DNA from: an uncultured Planctomycetota bacterium
GTDB lineage: Bacteria > Planctomycetota > Planctomycetia > Pirellulales > Thermoguttaceae
Direction of reading: 5' to 3'
Length of the DNA: 41,338 nucleotides
NCBI GenBank assembly: GCA_902770245.1
Contig: CACXSS010000013.1
Span: 1-41,338, forward strand
Below are positions 2,213-39,621 of this stretch, piece after piece. The translations under genes and the position numbers were made by a program. Below the pieces are notes generated by a model. That model was given only the letters and a program-made list of their open reading frames with translations, searched no databases and had not been told where the DNA came from. Within the stretch, counting starts at the first letter, position 1. Every line of letters begins with the position of its first letter.

Positions 2213-2410
2213 CTTAAATTAACCAATCGGTGACCGACAAGGTCGGCTCCTGATTGGAAGTGGGGAGCGCCAAAACCAGCGTCTTCGGAGACATAACCTC
2301 GTCCTTTCCGCTCGCGCGGCTTCGCGCTCCGTTTAATCCGTCAAATCCGTGAACGGACTGACCTGCTCAAAAACTGTTAGGTACGCAGTTGCCGAATGAA
2401 CCAGAATTGT
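2213..2410 (+). repeat. Intergenic repeat R, copy 1, interrupted by an inserted ~100-base element
   Basis: The outer parts, 2215-2232 (TTAACCAATCGGTGA word) and 2331-2405 (TTTAATC..., CAAAAACTGTTAGG, CAGTTGCCGAATGAACC), match the reverse complement of 12872-12975 closely and in the same order. Copy 2 runs straight from GGTGA to ATATCCGTTTAATC. Here those two sides are separated by a three-hairpin element (2234-2331). The right end runs up to the stop codon of the metallopeptidase gene at 2425. Confidence 0.7.
2234..2331 (+). repeat. Three-hairpin element, copy 1 (candidate structured RNA or small insertion element)
   Basis: Aligns over its whole length with 3618-3712. Hairpin 1: CCGAC (2234-2238) with GTCGG (2242-2246). 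Hairpin 2: GCGC (2267-2270) with GCGT (2279-2282). Then an identical GAGACATAACC linker (2288-2298). Hairpin 3: GCGCG (2314-2318), loop GCTT, CGCGC (2323-2327). In the other copy hairpin 3 is GTGCG/CGCAC, so the second base pair changed from C-G to T-A on both sides. That is a compensatory change favouring RNA or cruciform structure. Confidence 0.55.
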
Positions 2411-3333: not shown

Positions 3334-3600
3334 ATGAACTTTAATTTTTTTAACTGGATTCGCCAGGGCGTTAAGCAGTCGGTTTTAATGGGCGTTCACG
3401 ACGCGGTTGAATGCATCGGAACTCCGGTTGAAACGGACCAGGTCAAAGAGACGCTGCTTCAGTTTGCGGGAAACGAAGAAAACGCAGTAACGACCGTTGA
3501 CGTTCGCCGACTTCCCAGCTCGACGCCTCGCACCTCTGGCAAACTCGGGCGCCGTCTGAGCGACACGCTCAAAAAAGCGGACGAAACAAAGTCCGAGTAA
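3334..3600 (+). CDS. Small hypothetical protein (88 aa)
   Basis: ATG at 3334 after the weak purine stretch CGGAGTAAAAAT. The product begins MNFNFFNWIRQGVKQSVLMG, an amphipathic helix-like start, and ends in a Ser/Thr/Arg/Lys-rich hydrophilic tail. There is no signal peptide, full membrane segment or known motif. It is coding-like in composition and has its own strong terminator at 3727-3761, which supports it being an expressed unit. Function not recognised. Confidence 0.6.
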   Translation: MNFNFFNWIRQGVKQSVLMGVHDAVECIGTPVETDQVKETLLQFAGNEENAVTTVDVRRLPSSTPRTSGKLGRRLSDTLKKADETKSE

Positions 3601-3617: not shown

Positions 3618-3712
3618 CCGACAAGATCGGCTTCTGCGTGGATGTGGGGTGAGCCGAAATCGGCTTTTTCAGAGACATAACCTTTTCCACCCGCCTGTGC
3701 GGCTACGCACCC
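3618..3712 (+). repeat. Three-hairpin element, copy 2, in the 3' untranslated region of the small gene
   Basis: Same order of parts as 2234-2331. Hairpin 1: CCGA (3618-3621) with TCGG (3627-3630). Hairpin 2: AGCCGA (3652-3657) with TCGGCT (3660-3665). Identical linker GAGACATAACC (3672-3682). Hairpin 3: GTGCG (3697-3701), loop GCTA, CGCAC (3706-3710). It lies between the stop at 3600 and the terminator at 3727, so it should be part of the 3334-3600 transcript. Confidence 0.55.
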
Positions 3713-11901: not shown

Positions 11902-11912
11902 TGGAGGCGTAA

Positions 11913-11995
11913 CAATTAGCAATTAGCAATGAGCAATTAGCAATTGACAAAAAACGCTTCAATAATTGCTAATTGATAATTGCAAATTGCTAATT
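11913..11995. repeat. Heptamer fold-back array A
   Basis: CAATTAG, CAATTAG, CAATGAG, CAATTAG, CAATTGA (11913-11947), then a 16-base core containing AACGCTTC, then AATTGCT, AATTGAT, AATTGCA, AATTGCT (11964-11991). The right arm is the inverted complement of the left. The period is exactly 7 throughout. It fills the gap between the murB-like stop and the next gene together with the following stretch. Confidence 0.85.
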
Positions 11996-12871: not shown

Positions 12872-12975
12872 AATGGCTCATCCGGTAACTGAGCGCCTAA
12901 CAGTTTTTGAGCGGGTCAGTCCGTACACAGATTTGACTGATTAAACGGATATTCACCGATTGGTTAACTGATAAA
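12872..12975 (-). repeat. Intergenic repeat R, copy 2 (uninterrupted)
   Basis: Its reverse complement matches 2215-2232 plus 2331-2409: TTAACCAATCGGTGA, CCGTTTAATC, ACGGACTGACC, GCTCAAAAACTGTTAGG, then CAGTTACCGGATGAGCC. It lacks the three-hairpin element found in copy 1, so it shows the presumed empty site. Confidence 0.7.
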
Positions 12976-13006
12976 TCAATAATCTTTTGTGAATCATTCG
13001 ATTTTT

Positions 13007-13124
13007 AAACACGAAATACGCAAAATAACGCGAAAATCACGAAAAGTTTAAGATTATAAAATAACCCTTTCGTTTGTTATGTTCTTTTCGTGTATTTTGT
13101 GTTTTTCGCGTTCTCCTCGTGTTT
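13007..13124. repeat. Long imperfect inverted repeat
   Basis: The left arm (13007-13046, beginning AAACACGAAATACGC) and right arm (13084-13124, ending CTCCTCGTGTTT) are imperfect inverted complements of about 40 bases separated by 37 AT-rich bases. The word CACGAAA / TTTCGTG recurs within each arm. No coding capacity; looks like a small fold-back element. Confidence 0.6.
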
Positions 13125-26916: not shown

Positions 26917-27084
26917 ACAATTATCAATTAGCAATTAGCAATTTTCAATAGACGCAAAGCGCCACAATAATTAGTAATTATCAATTATCAATCAGCAATT
27001 AACAATTGGCGCAAGCGTCTGAGTAAACTCTTATGAGAAACGCGAAGCGTAATTGCTAATTGCTAATTACTAATTGCTAATTAG
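26917..27084. repeat. Heptamer fold-back array B (between lemA and the M48 gene)
   Basis: Left arm ACAATTA, TCAATTA, GCAATTA, GCAATTT, TCAATAG (26917-26951); core ACGCAAAGCGCC (26952-26963); second arm in the same orientation with units ending AATTA (about 26967-27007); second core GGCGCAAGCGTC; a third core CGCGAAGCG; then the inverted arm TAATTGC, TAATTGC, TAATTAC, TAATTGC, TAATTAG (27050-27084). The last unit supplies the lemA stop codon (27081-27083), and the first unit begins 5 bases before the M48 ATG. The whole intergenic space is array. Confidence 0.85.
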
Positions 27085-27737
27085 AACTTAACCTTGGGAG
27101 CTTCTTTTTCGGACGGATTTTCAATGACGAATTCTGTTGACGGCAGGAATCCGCACAGTCCGGCAATCAAATTGGCGGGGAAAACCTCGCGCTGTGTGTT
27201 GTATTTCATAACAACGTCATTGTACGCCTGACGAGCAAAACTGATTTTGTTTTCTGTCGAGGTGAGTTCTTCCTGAAGTTGCATAACGTTCTGGTTTGCT
27301 TTCAGTTCCGGGTAGTTTTCAAAAACGACCATCAAACGTCCCAGCGCTCCGCCCAAATTGGATTCTGCAGCGGAAAGGCTTTTCATCGCTTCCGGATTCG
27401 TCGGGTCGGCAGCGGCGGCTTTATTTGCGTTAAACGCAGCGGCGCGAGCGGAGATAACAGCTTCAAGCGTGCCCTTTTCGTGTCCCATATATCCCTTGAC
27501 CGTTTCCACCAGGTTGGGAATCAAATCGTAACGACGCTTGAGTTGAACGTCAATCTGGGAAAAGGCGTTCTTGACCTGGTTTCGAAGCCCGATAAGGCCA
27601 TTGTAAACGCCAATCCCCCAAAAGAAGAACATGGCAAGAACAGCCAACGCGCCGCAGCAAATAATGCCGCCAATCATCAACAACGACGATTGTGAACCAT
27701 CAACAGACTGCGCCAACAAAAACATACTCTCGTTCAT
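27081..27737 (-). CDS. lemA: LemA family protein
   Basis: 218 residues. A short N-terminal stretch, one membrane helix at ~19-42 (LLMIGGIICCGALAVLAMFFFWGIGVY), then the signature LRNQVKNAFSQIDVQLKRRYDLIPNLVETVKGYM and helical repeats (TLEAVISARAA, ENKISFARQAYNDVVMKYN), ending with FPANLIAGLCGF. LemA proteins form a membrane-anchored four-helix bundle and are usually encoded next to M48 peptidases or TPM-domain proteins; the exact role is uncertain. AGGAGGCAT before the ATG is a good ribosome-binding site. First gene of the lemA-M48-regulator operon. Confidence 0.93.
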   Translation of the reverse strand: MNESMFLLAQSVDGSQSSLLMIGGIICCGALAVLAMFFFWGIGVYNGLIGLRNQVKNAFSQIDVQLKRRYDLIPNLVETVKGYMGHEKGTLEAVISARAAAFNANKAAAADPTNPEAMKSLSAAESNLGGALGRLMVVFENYPELKANQNVMQLQEELTSTENKISFARQAYNDVVMKYNTQREVFPANLIAGLCGFLPSTEFVIENPSEKEAPKVKF

Positions 27738-27786: not shown

Positions 27787-27905
27787 AGTTAGGAGTCAGG
27801 AATGAGGAGTGCATAGTACTTAGTGCATAGTACTTAGTACGCAAGCGCTCCTCTCCTATGCACTATGCACTAATACCACTCTCAACTCGCTACTCGCAAC
27901 TTCCC
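27787..27905. repeat. Heptamer fold-back array C (upstream of lemA)
   Basis: AGTTAGG, AGTCAGG, AATGAGG, AGTGCAT, AGTACTT, AGTGCAT, AGTACTT (27787-27835), then a core with ACGCAAGCGCTC (27839-27850), then TATGCAC, TATGCAC, TAATACC, ACTCTCA, ACTCGCT, ACTCGCA, ACTTCCC (27857-27905). Seven-base phase is kept within each arm, and the arms are inverted complements near the core. It starts ~50 bases upstream of the lemA ATG, so it lies in or near the operon promoter. Confidence 0.85.
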
Positions 27906-28099: not shown

Positions 28100-29908
<1,809 letters not shown>

Positions 29909-37739: not shown

Positions 37740-37795
37740 CAGTAGGCAATATCAACTTACTACTGCCTATTGCCTACTGCCTATTGCCTACAGTC
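37740..37795. repeat. Heptamer array H (between the GH99-like and DUF6807 genes)
   Basis: CAGTAGG, CAATATC, AACTTAC, TACTGCC, TATTGCC, TACTGCC, TATTGCC, TACAGTC (37740-37795). The first unit plus CAAT is the inverted partner of ATTGCCTACT at 37769-37778. The last bases overlap the stop codon (37795-37797) of the DUF6807 gene. Same heptamer family (TACTGCC) as array D, 8.3 kb away. Confidence 0.8.
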
Positions 37796-39525
37796 TACTC
37801 TTTGTCTTTAATAACAATCTTATATGCGGCGGTAATCGACTTGCCGGGTTCGAGCAGAATCGGGTTTTCGTGAACGCGCATCGTCGCGCCCATATAGGCG
37901 AACGCCTTCCAGCCGTCGCCCATGGAATAACCGGTCATCGGGCGCGTGTTGCCGGGCAGGTCTTCGATTGTTACAGAAATCGGGGCGCCGTCTACGATTC
38001 CAGTCGCGTTAATCCACTGACAATCCTTGAGTCGTTCGTCTCCGCGAACAATTGCGCCATCGTGGGCGCCGGTACTGTTGGAAAATCGAACGGTCGTATT
38101 CATGTCCTTGGCGAAACGCATTCCCAAACCGAAATAGTAGCGTCCGTTAATTGTAATCGCTTTGTCGCCGGCGGGCGTGAGAACGGATTTCCAGTTCAGA
38201 ACGTTGGCGCCGTCAACGGACGCAACGGAAATCTCGCGAACCTCTTTGGCGATAACCGTTCCGTCCGCAGCAATCCAATTGAGTTCCGCATTGATGGCGG
38301 ACGAGTCCTCGGACAGTTCGCACTTCGTTAAAACTTCCTGACTGCAATTGTCGCCGTATTCGCCCCAGAACTCGAAGCCGTCAACGCTTAAAGAGTACAT
38401 CAAACCGTGATGATGAACGTGGTCAGCGGGCGAATCTGAAAGAACCTGAACGCCGAGTGGCGTGAACAACTGTTCAATATATGGCTTGTACTTCCCGGCT
38501 GTCTGAAACTGGGCGACGACTTTGCCGTTGGCTTTGAGCGGGAGTCTCGTTTTAAGCTGACCGTCAACCAGTTCAGCGGATTTCCCGTCGGCGGAAATGC
38601 GATACAGACCGTCAATCGTGCGAGCGTAAATCGTATACGTTCCGTCTGCGTTTGGAGCTGTTACAACGGAGACGAATCCGGTCATGTCCTCAGCCAGCGT
38701 CGTCCACTCTTTGGCGGTTCTGTCATACTGGCACAGCGCACCGTCTTTATCGACGGCAATCAAAACGTCTTTGTCCGTCCCTTTGCCGACTGTCATACAT
38801 TTAACGACTTTGTCCAGCGGATCAACCTTTTTGCCGATAAGAATCCAGGTATTGTCTTCCCCGGCGGCGATAATTTCATCTTCCTTGGTTGTCGGAACGA
38901 AGTTGCCGCAAATGGTTGCTTTTACGTTCTTCCCCATGAACTTTTGAGAGTAAACATTCCAAACCGGGTTGTACGTGTAAACGTCTCCGTTGGTAATGGC
39001 AACAAACTGACACGGCATGTTCGCCTTGATTTTCCCGGCGGAAACCTGATCAAAATCGCCGGAAATAGGCGGCCAGCCTTTTTTGTCGTAATCTTTGTTC
39101 CACAAATAGGAGGAGCCGGAATACGTTGAGGCGATAAGCGTACTTCTGGCATCGTCTTTAGTAATCACGCCGGCTGAAATCGCTTTGACGTTGCTTCCGT
39201 TCGGTCCGGACAGAACAACCGCTTTGCCGGTTTCAATCGTCTTTTCCGCATCGAGAATGTAGAGAGCTTTTATGTCCTGACTGATAATCGCCAGGCAGTC
39301 TTTGCCGGAGCCGTCGTTGTCGAAAGCGACAATCTGATGACCTTTTTCGTAGAACCCCATCAGACGAACGCTTTTCTGCCCGTCGAAAAGGCGAATTTCA
39401 CCCGTGGAGTCAAGCCACGCAACGCCAAACGTTCCGCCTGCCATGTTGTGACAGGCATTCTCTGCCGCAAAAGCGGGAAGAGCAAATACAAGCGCTAAAA
39501 GCAGCGCAGCAATTGTATGTTTCAT
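37795..39525 (-). CDS. Secreted DUF6807 (PmoA-family) protein with N-terminal propeller-like region
   Basis: 576 residues from the ATG at 39525, where a good signal peptide begins (MKHTIAALLLALVFALPAFA); the in-frame extension to 39603 is translated heptamer array I and is rejected. Residues ~25-330 contain repeated short strands (GVAWLDSTGEIRLFDG, KALYILDAEKTIE, VAITNGDVYTYNP, GEDNTWILIGKK, AVDKDGALCQYD), like a beta propeller. The C-terminal ~240 residues match the DUF6807 pattern: LFTPLGVQVLSDSPADHVHHHGL (His cluster), WGEYGDN, and a closing ILLEPGKSITAAYKIVI. Often next to Gfo/Idh/MocA oxidoreductases, as here. Probably periplasmic sugar-related; reaction unknown. Confidence 0.78.
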   Translation of the reverse strand: MKHTIAALLLALVFALPAFAAENACHNMAGGTFGVAWLDSTGEIRLFDGQKSVRLMGFYEKGHQIVAFDNDGSGKDCLAIISQDIKALYILDAEKTIETGKAVVLSGPNGSNVKAISAGVITKDDARSTLIASTYSGSSYLWNKDYDKKGWPPISGDFDQVSAGKIKANMPCQFVAITNGDVYTYNPVWNVYSQKFMGKNVKATICGNFVPTTKEDEIIAAGEDNTWILIGKKVDPLDKVVKCMTVGKGTDKDVLIAVDKDGALCQYDRTAKEWTTLAEDMTGFVSVVTAPNADGTYTIYARTIDGLYRISADGKSAELVDGQLKTRLPLKANGKVVAQFQTAGKYKPYIEQLFTPLGVQVLSDSPADHVHHHGLMYSLSVDGFEFWGEYGDNCSQEVLTKCELSEDSSAINAELNWIAADGTVIAKEVREISVASVDGANVLNWKSVLTPAGDKAITINGRYYFGLGMRFAKDMNTTVRFSNSTGAHDGAIVRGDERLKDCQWINATGIVDGAPISVTIEDLPGNTRPMTGYSMGDGWKAFAYMGATMRVHENPILLEPGKSITAAYKIVIKDKE

Positions 39526-39547
39526 TATAATAATCCTCGTATTGATG

Positions 39548-39621
39548 AGTGCATAGTACCTAGTGCATAGTGCATAGTGGAAGGCGCTTTGCGTACTACG
39601 CACTATGCACTACGCACTATA
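39548..39621. repeat. Heptamer fold-back array I (between the DUF6807 and Gfo/Idh/MocA genes)
   Basis: AGTGCAT, AGTACCT, AGTGCAT, AGTGCAT, AGTGGAA (39548-39582), core GGCGCTTTGCGT (39583-39594), then inverted units ending ACTACGC, ACTATGC, ACTACGC, ACTATAA (39595-39622). The core is the exact complement of the ACGCAAAGCGCC core of array B, 12.6 kb away. Same AGTGCAT family as array C. It ends 2 bases before the Gfo/Idh/MocA stop codon. Confidence 0.88.

Follow-up and report, generated by a model that had tools for sequence, protein, structure and literature searches.

A unit of about 93 nt with a small hairpin at either end, called H here, is very probably a non-autonomous DNA element that is still mobile, or was so until recently, and that is confined to a single genus of the Thermoguttaceae. 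It is found in other repeats, in itself, in intergenic DNA and in genes. The window, by which we mean the whole stretch of 41,338 nt that was analysed, comes from a 4.06-Mb metagenome-assembled genome (MAG; G000) of the Thermoguttaceae, Planctomycetota, and was compared with three congeners (G001 to G003). The host genus comprises planctomycete bacteria of the ruminant gut, the congener MAGs being from goat and water buffalo. All the genomes compared are fragmented MAGs, in which repeats break contigs. Repeats were mapped in the genome by searches and in selected stretches, and H was modelled with a covariance model built from 28 copies.

A filled and an empty copy of repeat R

The preliminary description of the window held that a repeat, R, is continuous at 12872-12975 (minus strand) and is interrupted by a hairpin element at 2213-2410, a second copy of the element being at 3618-3712. 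Direct reading of the sequence bears this out. The empty R, whose whole stretch runs to about 12999, reads ...TTAACCAATCGGTGA/ATAT/CCGTTTAATCAGTCAAATCTG... along the minus strand from 12975 to 12872. In the filled copy (plus strand), the left part of R (2213-2233, CTTAAATTAACCAATCGGTGA) and its right part (2329-2410, CCGTTTAATCCGTCAAATCC...GAATGAACCAGAATTGT) flank a 95-nt H at 2234-2328 that starts with CCGACAAGGTCGG and ends with GGCTTCGCGCT, the junctions being ...TTAAATTAACCAATCGGTGA/CCGACAAGG...GGCTTCGCGCT/CCGTTTAATCCGTCAAATCCG... in the order R, H, R. Thus 95 nt stand in place of 4 nt (ATAT), a net gain of 91, between R arms that are 87% identical in the two copies over 76 nt. The covariance model matches this H at 2234-2329 (107.5 bits, E 2.8e-32). 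Similarity to other R copies extends leftward to about 2090, and the same left flank recurs in R copies without H (L008, L012, L022) and with H (L002).

The second H (3618-3712, plus strand) stands alone and scores 93.9 bits against the family model; it is 79% identical to the first over 72 nt. It lies 17 nt past the stop codon of a small ORF (88 aa; 3334-3600, plus strand) and precedes a terminator-like hairpin. The ORF is conserved in the congeners and anchors the orthologous site, which in G002 is empty (GAAA-CC-AACCAA vs GAAA-[H..CCCGG]-AACCAA), with flanks about 87% identical to those of this genome and a net insert of about 95 nt.

R is itself dispersed, with at least about 40 matches in each of the four congeneric genomes; the G002 locus orthologous to 12.9 kb lacks the entire R stretch, as far as about 12999. 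A long palindromic module of AAACACGAAA-type repeats adjoins R at 13002-13105 of the window and is kept at that G002 locus, where R is absent. Around the filled copy (2005-2438), the gene order departs from that of the congeners exactly at R+H, which reflects either a rearrangement at the repeat or a misjoin, and the contig join there could accordingly be a repeat-mediated misjoin. Since the same R-H-R structure is present independently on C278 (93% identity), the nesting is real whether or not the window contig was misjoined.

Among the matches listed, R is interrupted exactly at the H position in this genome only (C13, C158, C166, C209, C235, C278), and truncated R+H matches occur additionally on C48 and C131. 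About six to eight R copies here carry H or a remnant of it, and at least a dozen long copies do not. None of the listed R matches of G001-G003 that cross the H position is interrupted by H. As R without H is present in all four species and R with H is seen only here, the empty site is ancestral and H, on this comparative reading, entered R in this lineage. The opposite polarity, in which H belonged to R from the start and was deleted from the 12.9-kb copy, could appeal to the several R copies here that share both the position of H and its diagnostic bases. That reading is already refuted by the congeners and we consider it practically excluded: most H copies stand alone or in unrelated contexts, and R without H is the majority form here and the sole form seen in G001-G003 among the matches listed. 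The preliminary description would have fallen had most genomic copies of R contained H, and it survives this test.

The R-borne H copies have diagnostic bases in common (GCGTCTTCGGAGACATAACCTCGTC), and the two full-length R-borne copies pair in the H tree (support 0.95). These features make a single insertion of H into R, followed by spread of the composite, the most likely history, as far as can be inferred from the sequences. The other host-repeat classes, M, N and P, are intermixed in the tree, which suggests gene conversion or poor resolution. For some of these H-in-repeat families, recombination or gene conversion of the composite, and not movement of H itself, could account for the spread.

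Dispersal of H and its place in protein-coding genes

At least 67 covariance-model matches to H were found in this genome, about 60 of them full length, a number that is not due to chance; the three congeners have at least 38, 47 and 78 matches. Outside the genus, the model gave only one marginal match in 36 genomes from the family and order, and no H was found in 196 further genomes from a wider draw on the order. The exact left-end pattern of H, searched in 84,980 genomes, was found only in three Thermoguttaceae congener MAGs (the records of the window itself possibly lay outside this search), and no match to H was found in phages, plasmids or IMG/VR. Nor was a longer parent element with the ends of H seen among the left-end matches listed for the own genome, all 17 of which belong to full-length H copies. 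One H is nested in another (G000 C7:3758-3891), and head-to-tail pairs occur at C90:3400-3589 and C231:5355-5542; one of these nested or tandem arrangements is in frame within a 797-aa ORF. Genome-wide mapping thus separates R and H as two dispersed families. The filled and empty pair in the window, offered earlier as evidence of a mobile element, is now joined by the empty orthologous site at 3618 and by at least 22 further independent comparisons in genes.

The larger finding, which formed no part of the preliminary description, is that H also inserts in frame into genes. Of 119 distinct full-length copies, 59 are located in ORFs 180 aa or longer, although some such ORFs are not genes. Comparison with uninterrupted relatives confirmed 22 sites at which dispersed H copies sit in frame inside unrelated protein genes. 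When 15 filled genes were used as chimeric queries with H left out, contiguous orthologues or paralogues were recovered in the congeners, mostly 75-95% identical. The filled genes include those for GlgC, a P-type ATPase, a glutamate-synthase-like protein, an RNA methyltransferase, an MBL hydrolase, an NYN-domain protein, a 3-hydroxyacyl-CoA dehydrogenase, a rhamnogalacturonan lyase and RtcB, among others (only glgC and rtcB were checked against Pfam, and the other names are our reading of the sequences). In G002, GlgC is longer by exactly 31 residues, which are found in none of three congeners, and the insert interrupts its Pfam Hexapep_GlmU match; an AlphaFold model of GlgC with H gave no usable structure (mean pLDDT 33). 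In the MBL gene, the position of H differs between two species (L027, L189), and in one gene family H is at the same site in all four (L082, L148, L192, L161).

It could be asked whether filled sites are artefacts of metagenome assembly through repeats: only MAGs are available, several contigs end inside R+H, and the R+H copy of the window lies at a synteny break. We judge this very improbable, because at all 22 sites in genes the sequences to the left and right of H align, in frame, with one and the same uninterrupted gene in a relative, and because the family with H at one common place was recovered from four independently assembled genomes. Only slightly less improbable is the view of H as a conserved functional RNA or protein module (a terminator, a riboswitch or a domain) that does not move. 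The terminal hairpins are conserved and copy 2 directly follows a gene, as such a module would have it; yet H has no match in Rfam, the peptides read from it match no Pfam or NCBIfam family, and it occurs in either orientation and in several frames inside unrelated genes whose orthologues lack it. A mobile element remains the preferred reading.

The sizes of the inserts follow a rule in genes that does not hold elsewhere. From nucleotide comparison of filled with empty sites, the net insert at the 22 independent coding sites is 93 nt (15 sites), 90 nt (6) or 87 nt (1), in all cases a multiple of three. Two sites depart in detail: L183 gives 92 in one comparison and 93 in another, and L125 gives 94 on a contig with ambiguous bases. 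In non-coding host repeats, the net inserts are 91 (R), 89 (P), 91 (Q) and 91 (N), and the range including the 3618 site is 89-95 nt. That lengths divisible by three are the rule in genes but not elsewhere points to selection on the outcome rather than to an insertion process that senses the frame.

In 20 of the 22 coding copies, H is read on the strand whose consensus is open in all three frames, two of which are used (GCEAARAEGRGYASEKAGFEDTHVQSGTDLVG-type at 11 sites, GAKPHGQKDEVMPPNKPVSALPTSNQEPTLSG-type at 9); GYASEKAGFEDTHVQSGTDLVG is an example of the peptide predicted from reading through H. The openness of this strand in all three frames is mildly unusual compared with shuffled sequences (p 0.03), and the openness across all six frames is not (p 0.49). 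In the gene flanks, dN/dS against uninterrupted relatives ranges from 0 to about 0.27, and is mostly below 0.2, for 15 of the 16 genes tested; the highest of these values, 0.27, is from one paralogue comparison, and the exception, L099, has low divergence. As judged by these substitution patterns, with no data on expression or activity, the interrupted genes demonstrably remain under purifying selection in their flanks. From the multiple-of-three inserts, the stop-free strand and the purifying selection, we infer that the genes are read through H and that the proteins would be longer by about 31 residues. The production and function of such proteins have not been shown.

Proteins could also stay unchanged if ribosomes bypassed H or if H were spliced out. 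Mobile translational bypass elements exist, the byps of yeast mitochondria, and skipping or splicing would account for the tolerance of H in enzymes such as GlgC and RtcB. Neither process needs a length in multiples of three or a stop-free frame, and yet 22 of 22 sites have such a length and 20 of 22 use the open strand; we find this alternative barely credible and retain translation through H.

Other repeats are also found in long open frames in this genus. A second family, with the peptide LTQATNGSDSCQSRGSADWERRLAA, occurs at L201:640-3338 and in other ORFs (423-1047 aa), and in one case an uninterrupted congener version is available (L214). Heptamer tracts, (TACTGCC)n and (GCAACTC)n, are in frame in a P-type ATPase and a rhamnogalacturonan lyase (L015, L050), where they are read as NPNYCLLPAAYCLKS and RNSQLATRNS. 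The window itself has families of 7-base tandem repeats (AATTAGC, CTACTGC, GTGCATA and others), which are reminiscent of the cyanobacterial STRR repeats, at 11912-11995, 26917-27096, 27789-27872, 29439-29480, 37746-37801 and 39543-39620.

Ends, fold and possible mode of movement

The exact ends and any target-site duplication had been left to be defined, and the filled and empty pairs now allow this. At the cleanest sites (L185 vs L209, L055 vs L216), a 93-nt unit, CCGAC...GCAC, is simply added, and no pair has a target-site duplication of more than 2 nt. The host often has CC just after H, which leaves room for a 2-nt CC duplication at such sites; there is none at L149 and L099. At some insertions, 2-6 target bases were lost, and the gain is then a little below 93 nt. 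H has no terminal inverted repeats and its left flanks hold no strong target motif (at most 0.36 bits per position). A MITE of a DDE transposon was rejected as a candidate, given the lack of both terminal inverted repeats and a fixed-length target duplication (at most 2 nt, and sometimes 2-6 nt lost). A preference for hairpins in the target was not seen either: perfect stems across the junction average 3.10, against 3.11 at control positions. The folding energy at junctions is slightly lower (p 0.016), a difference confounded by GC content, and no such preference is claimed.

The consensus of H folds into two terminal hairpins of 5 bp with two small stems between them, and 98.7% of the cells pair; only one compensatory pair is convincing (82-93, in the right hairpin). 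The earlier label of a three-hairpin element is thus roughly right as regards the consensus, but a single copy need not fold in this way.

What moves H can only be proposed. Insertion would be blind to the reading frame, and selection would retain those insertions that are in frame, stop-free and tolerable, as for the palindromic elements of Rickettsia; both steps are inferred. H would depend for its movement on a host or transposon enzyme, as yet unidentified, that acts in trans on the hairpin ends, and the movement would probably be via a single-stranded copy, since terminal inverted repeats and a target duplication of the usual length are lacking. A trans-acting, hairpin-recognising, single-strand mechanism is our best guess and not a result.

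A specific form of this proposal makes H the non-autonomous partner of an IS200/IS605-like Y1 (HUH) transposase, in the manner of REP/REPIN-RAYT or PATE elements. The hairpins at both ends, together with the same lack of inverted repeats and of the usual duplication, would suit it, and Y1_Tnp genes exist in all four genomes. Nevertheless, no H was found in stretches of about 3 kb around 20 Y1_Tnp genes, the left flanks hold no conserved target tetranucleotide, the loss of target bases at some sites differs from the exact insertion of IS200/IS605, and Y1 genes are also present in relatives without H (G005, G024). We regard the partnership as unlikely without discarding it; membership of the REP/RAYT or IS200/IS605-derived families was not accepted, for want of H at the 20 loci and of a target motif.

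Comparison with known elements

REP/REPIN-RAYT and the GTAG or CGTC repeats resemble H in being short hairpins of high copy number, and they have been reported in Planctomycetes too (PMC3733652). REPs are 20-40 nt long, extragenic and tagged by GTAG or CGTC (PMC3733652), whereas H is 93 nt long, often intragenic and not beside the Y1 genes examined. The enterobacterial RU/ERIC and YPAL elements are small non-autonomous repeats, some of them in frame in genes, and empty and filled sites are known for YPAL (PMC2229807, PMC2759123). They differ in that target duplications have been reported (3-26 bp in YPAL; PMC2229807, PMC2759123), against none above 2 nt for H, and in being mainly intergenic, whereas about half of the full-length H copies examined lie in long open frames. 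In the open-access literature, we found no report of elements like H in Planctomycetota.

Most of what is known of protein-coding palindromic elements comes from the Rickettsiales, which are obligate intracellular bacteria. There, orthologues are reported to share the site of insertion (PMC3767692), which makes the ends and the mode of insertion hard to read directly. The many exact before-and-after pairs in conserved planctomycete genes make it possible to measure the ends, the lack of the usual duplication, the frame rule and how fast H spreads, and offer a test of how proteins gain new segments. A bolder view, which we put forward only tentatively and think somewhat less probable than its negation, is that an unknown insertion machinery places stop-poor elements of 93 nt, or 31 codons, and apparently several other repeat families, in genes at a high rate and without the usual duplication, leaving a sizeable set of enzymes with recent 30-residue segments. 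If true, it would amount to an ongoing natural experiment in protein insertion outside the Rickettsiales.

The closest parallel is with the palindromic elements of Rickettsia (RPE) and Wolbachia (Ogata et al., 2000, 2002, 2005; reviewed in PMC2229807, PMC10969869). RPE, like H, are hairpin-forming repeats of about 100 nt in many copies, both intergenic and in frame in unrelated conserved genes; the peptide is tolerated, the elements are restricted to one lineage and the mobiliser is unknown (PMC2229807, PMC10969869). The differences are that H belongs to an unrelated phylum, that it has a constant length of 93 nt and small hairpins at its ends while an RPE is a single long palindrome (105-146 bp) bounded by terminal inverted repeats, that most insertions of H are confined to one species and have exact empty sites in the congeners, and that H uses two frames of one strand about equally. 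By analogy, and with no kinship of sequence shown, H behaves like a Rickettsia palindromic element.
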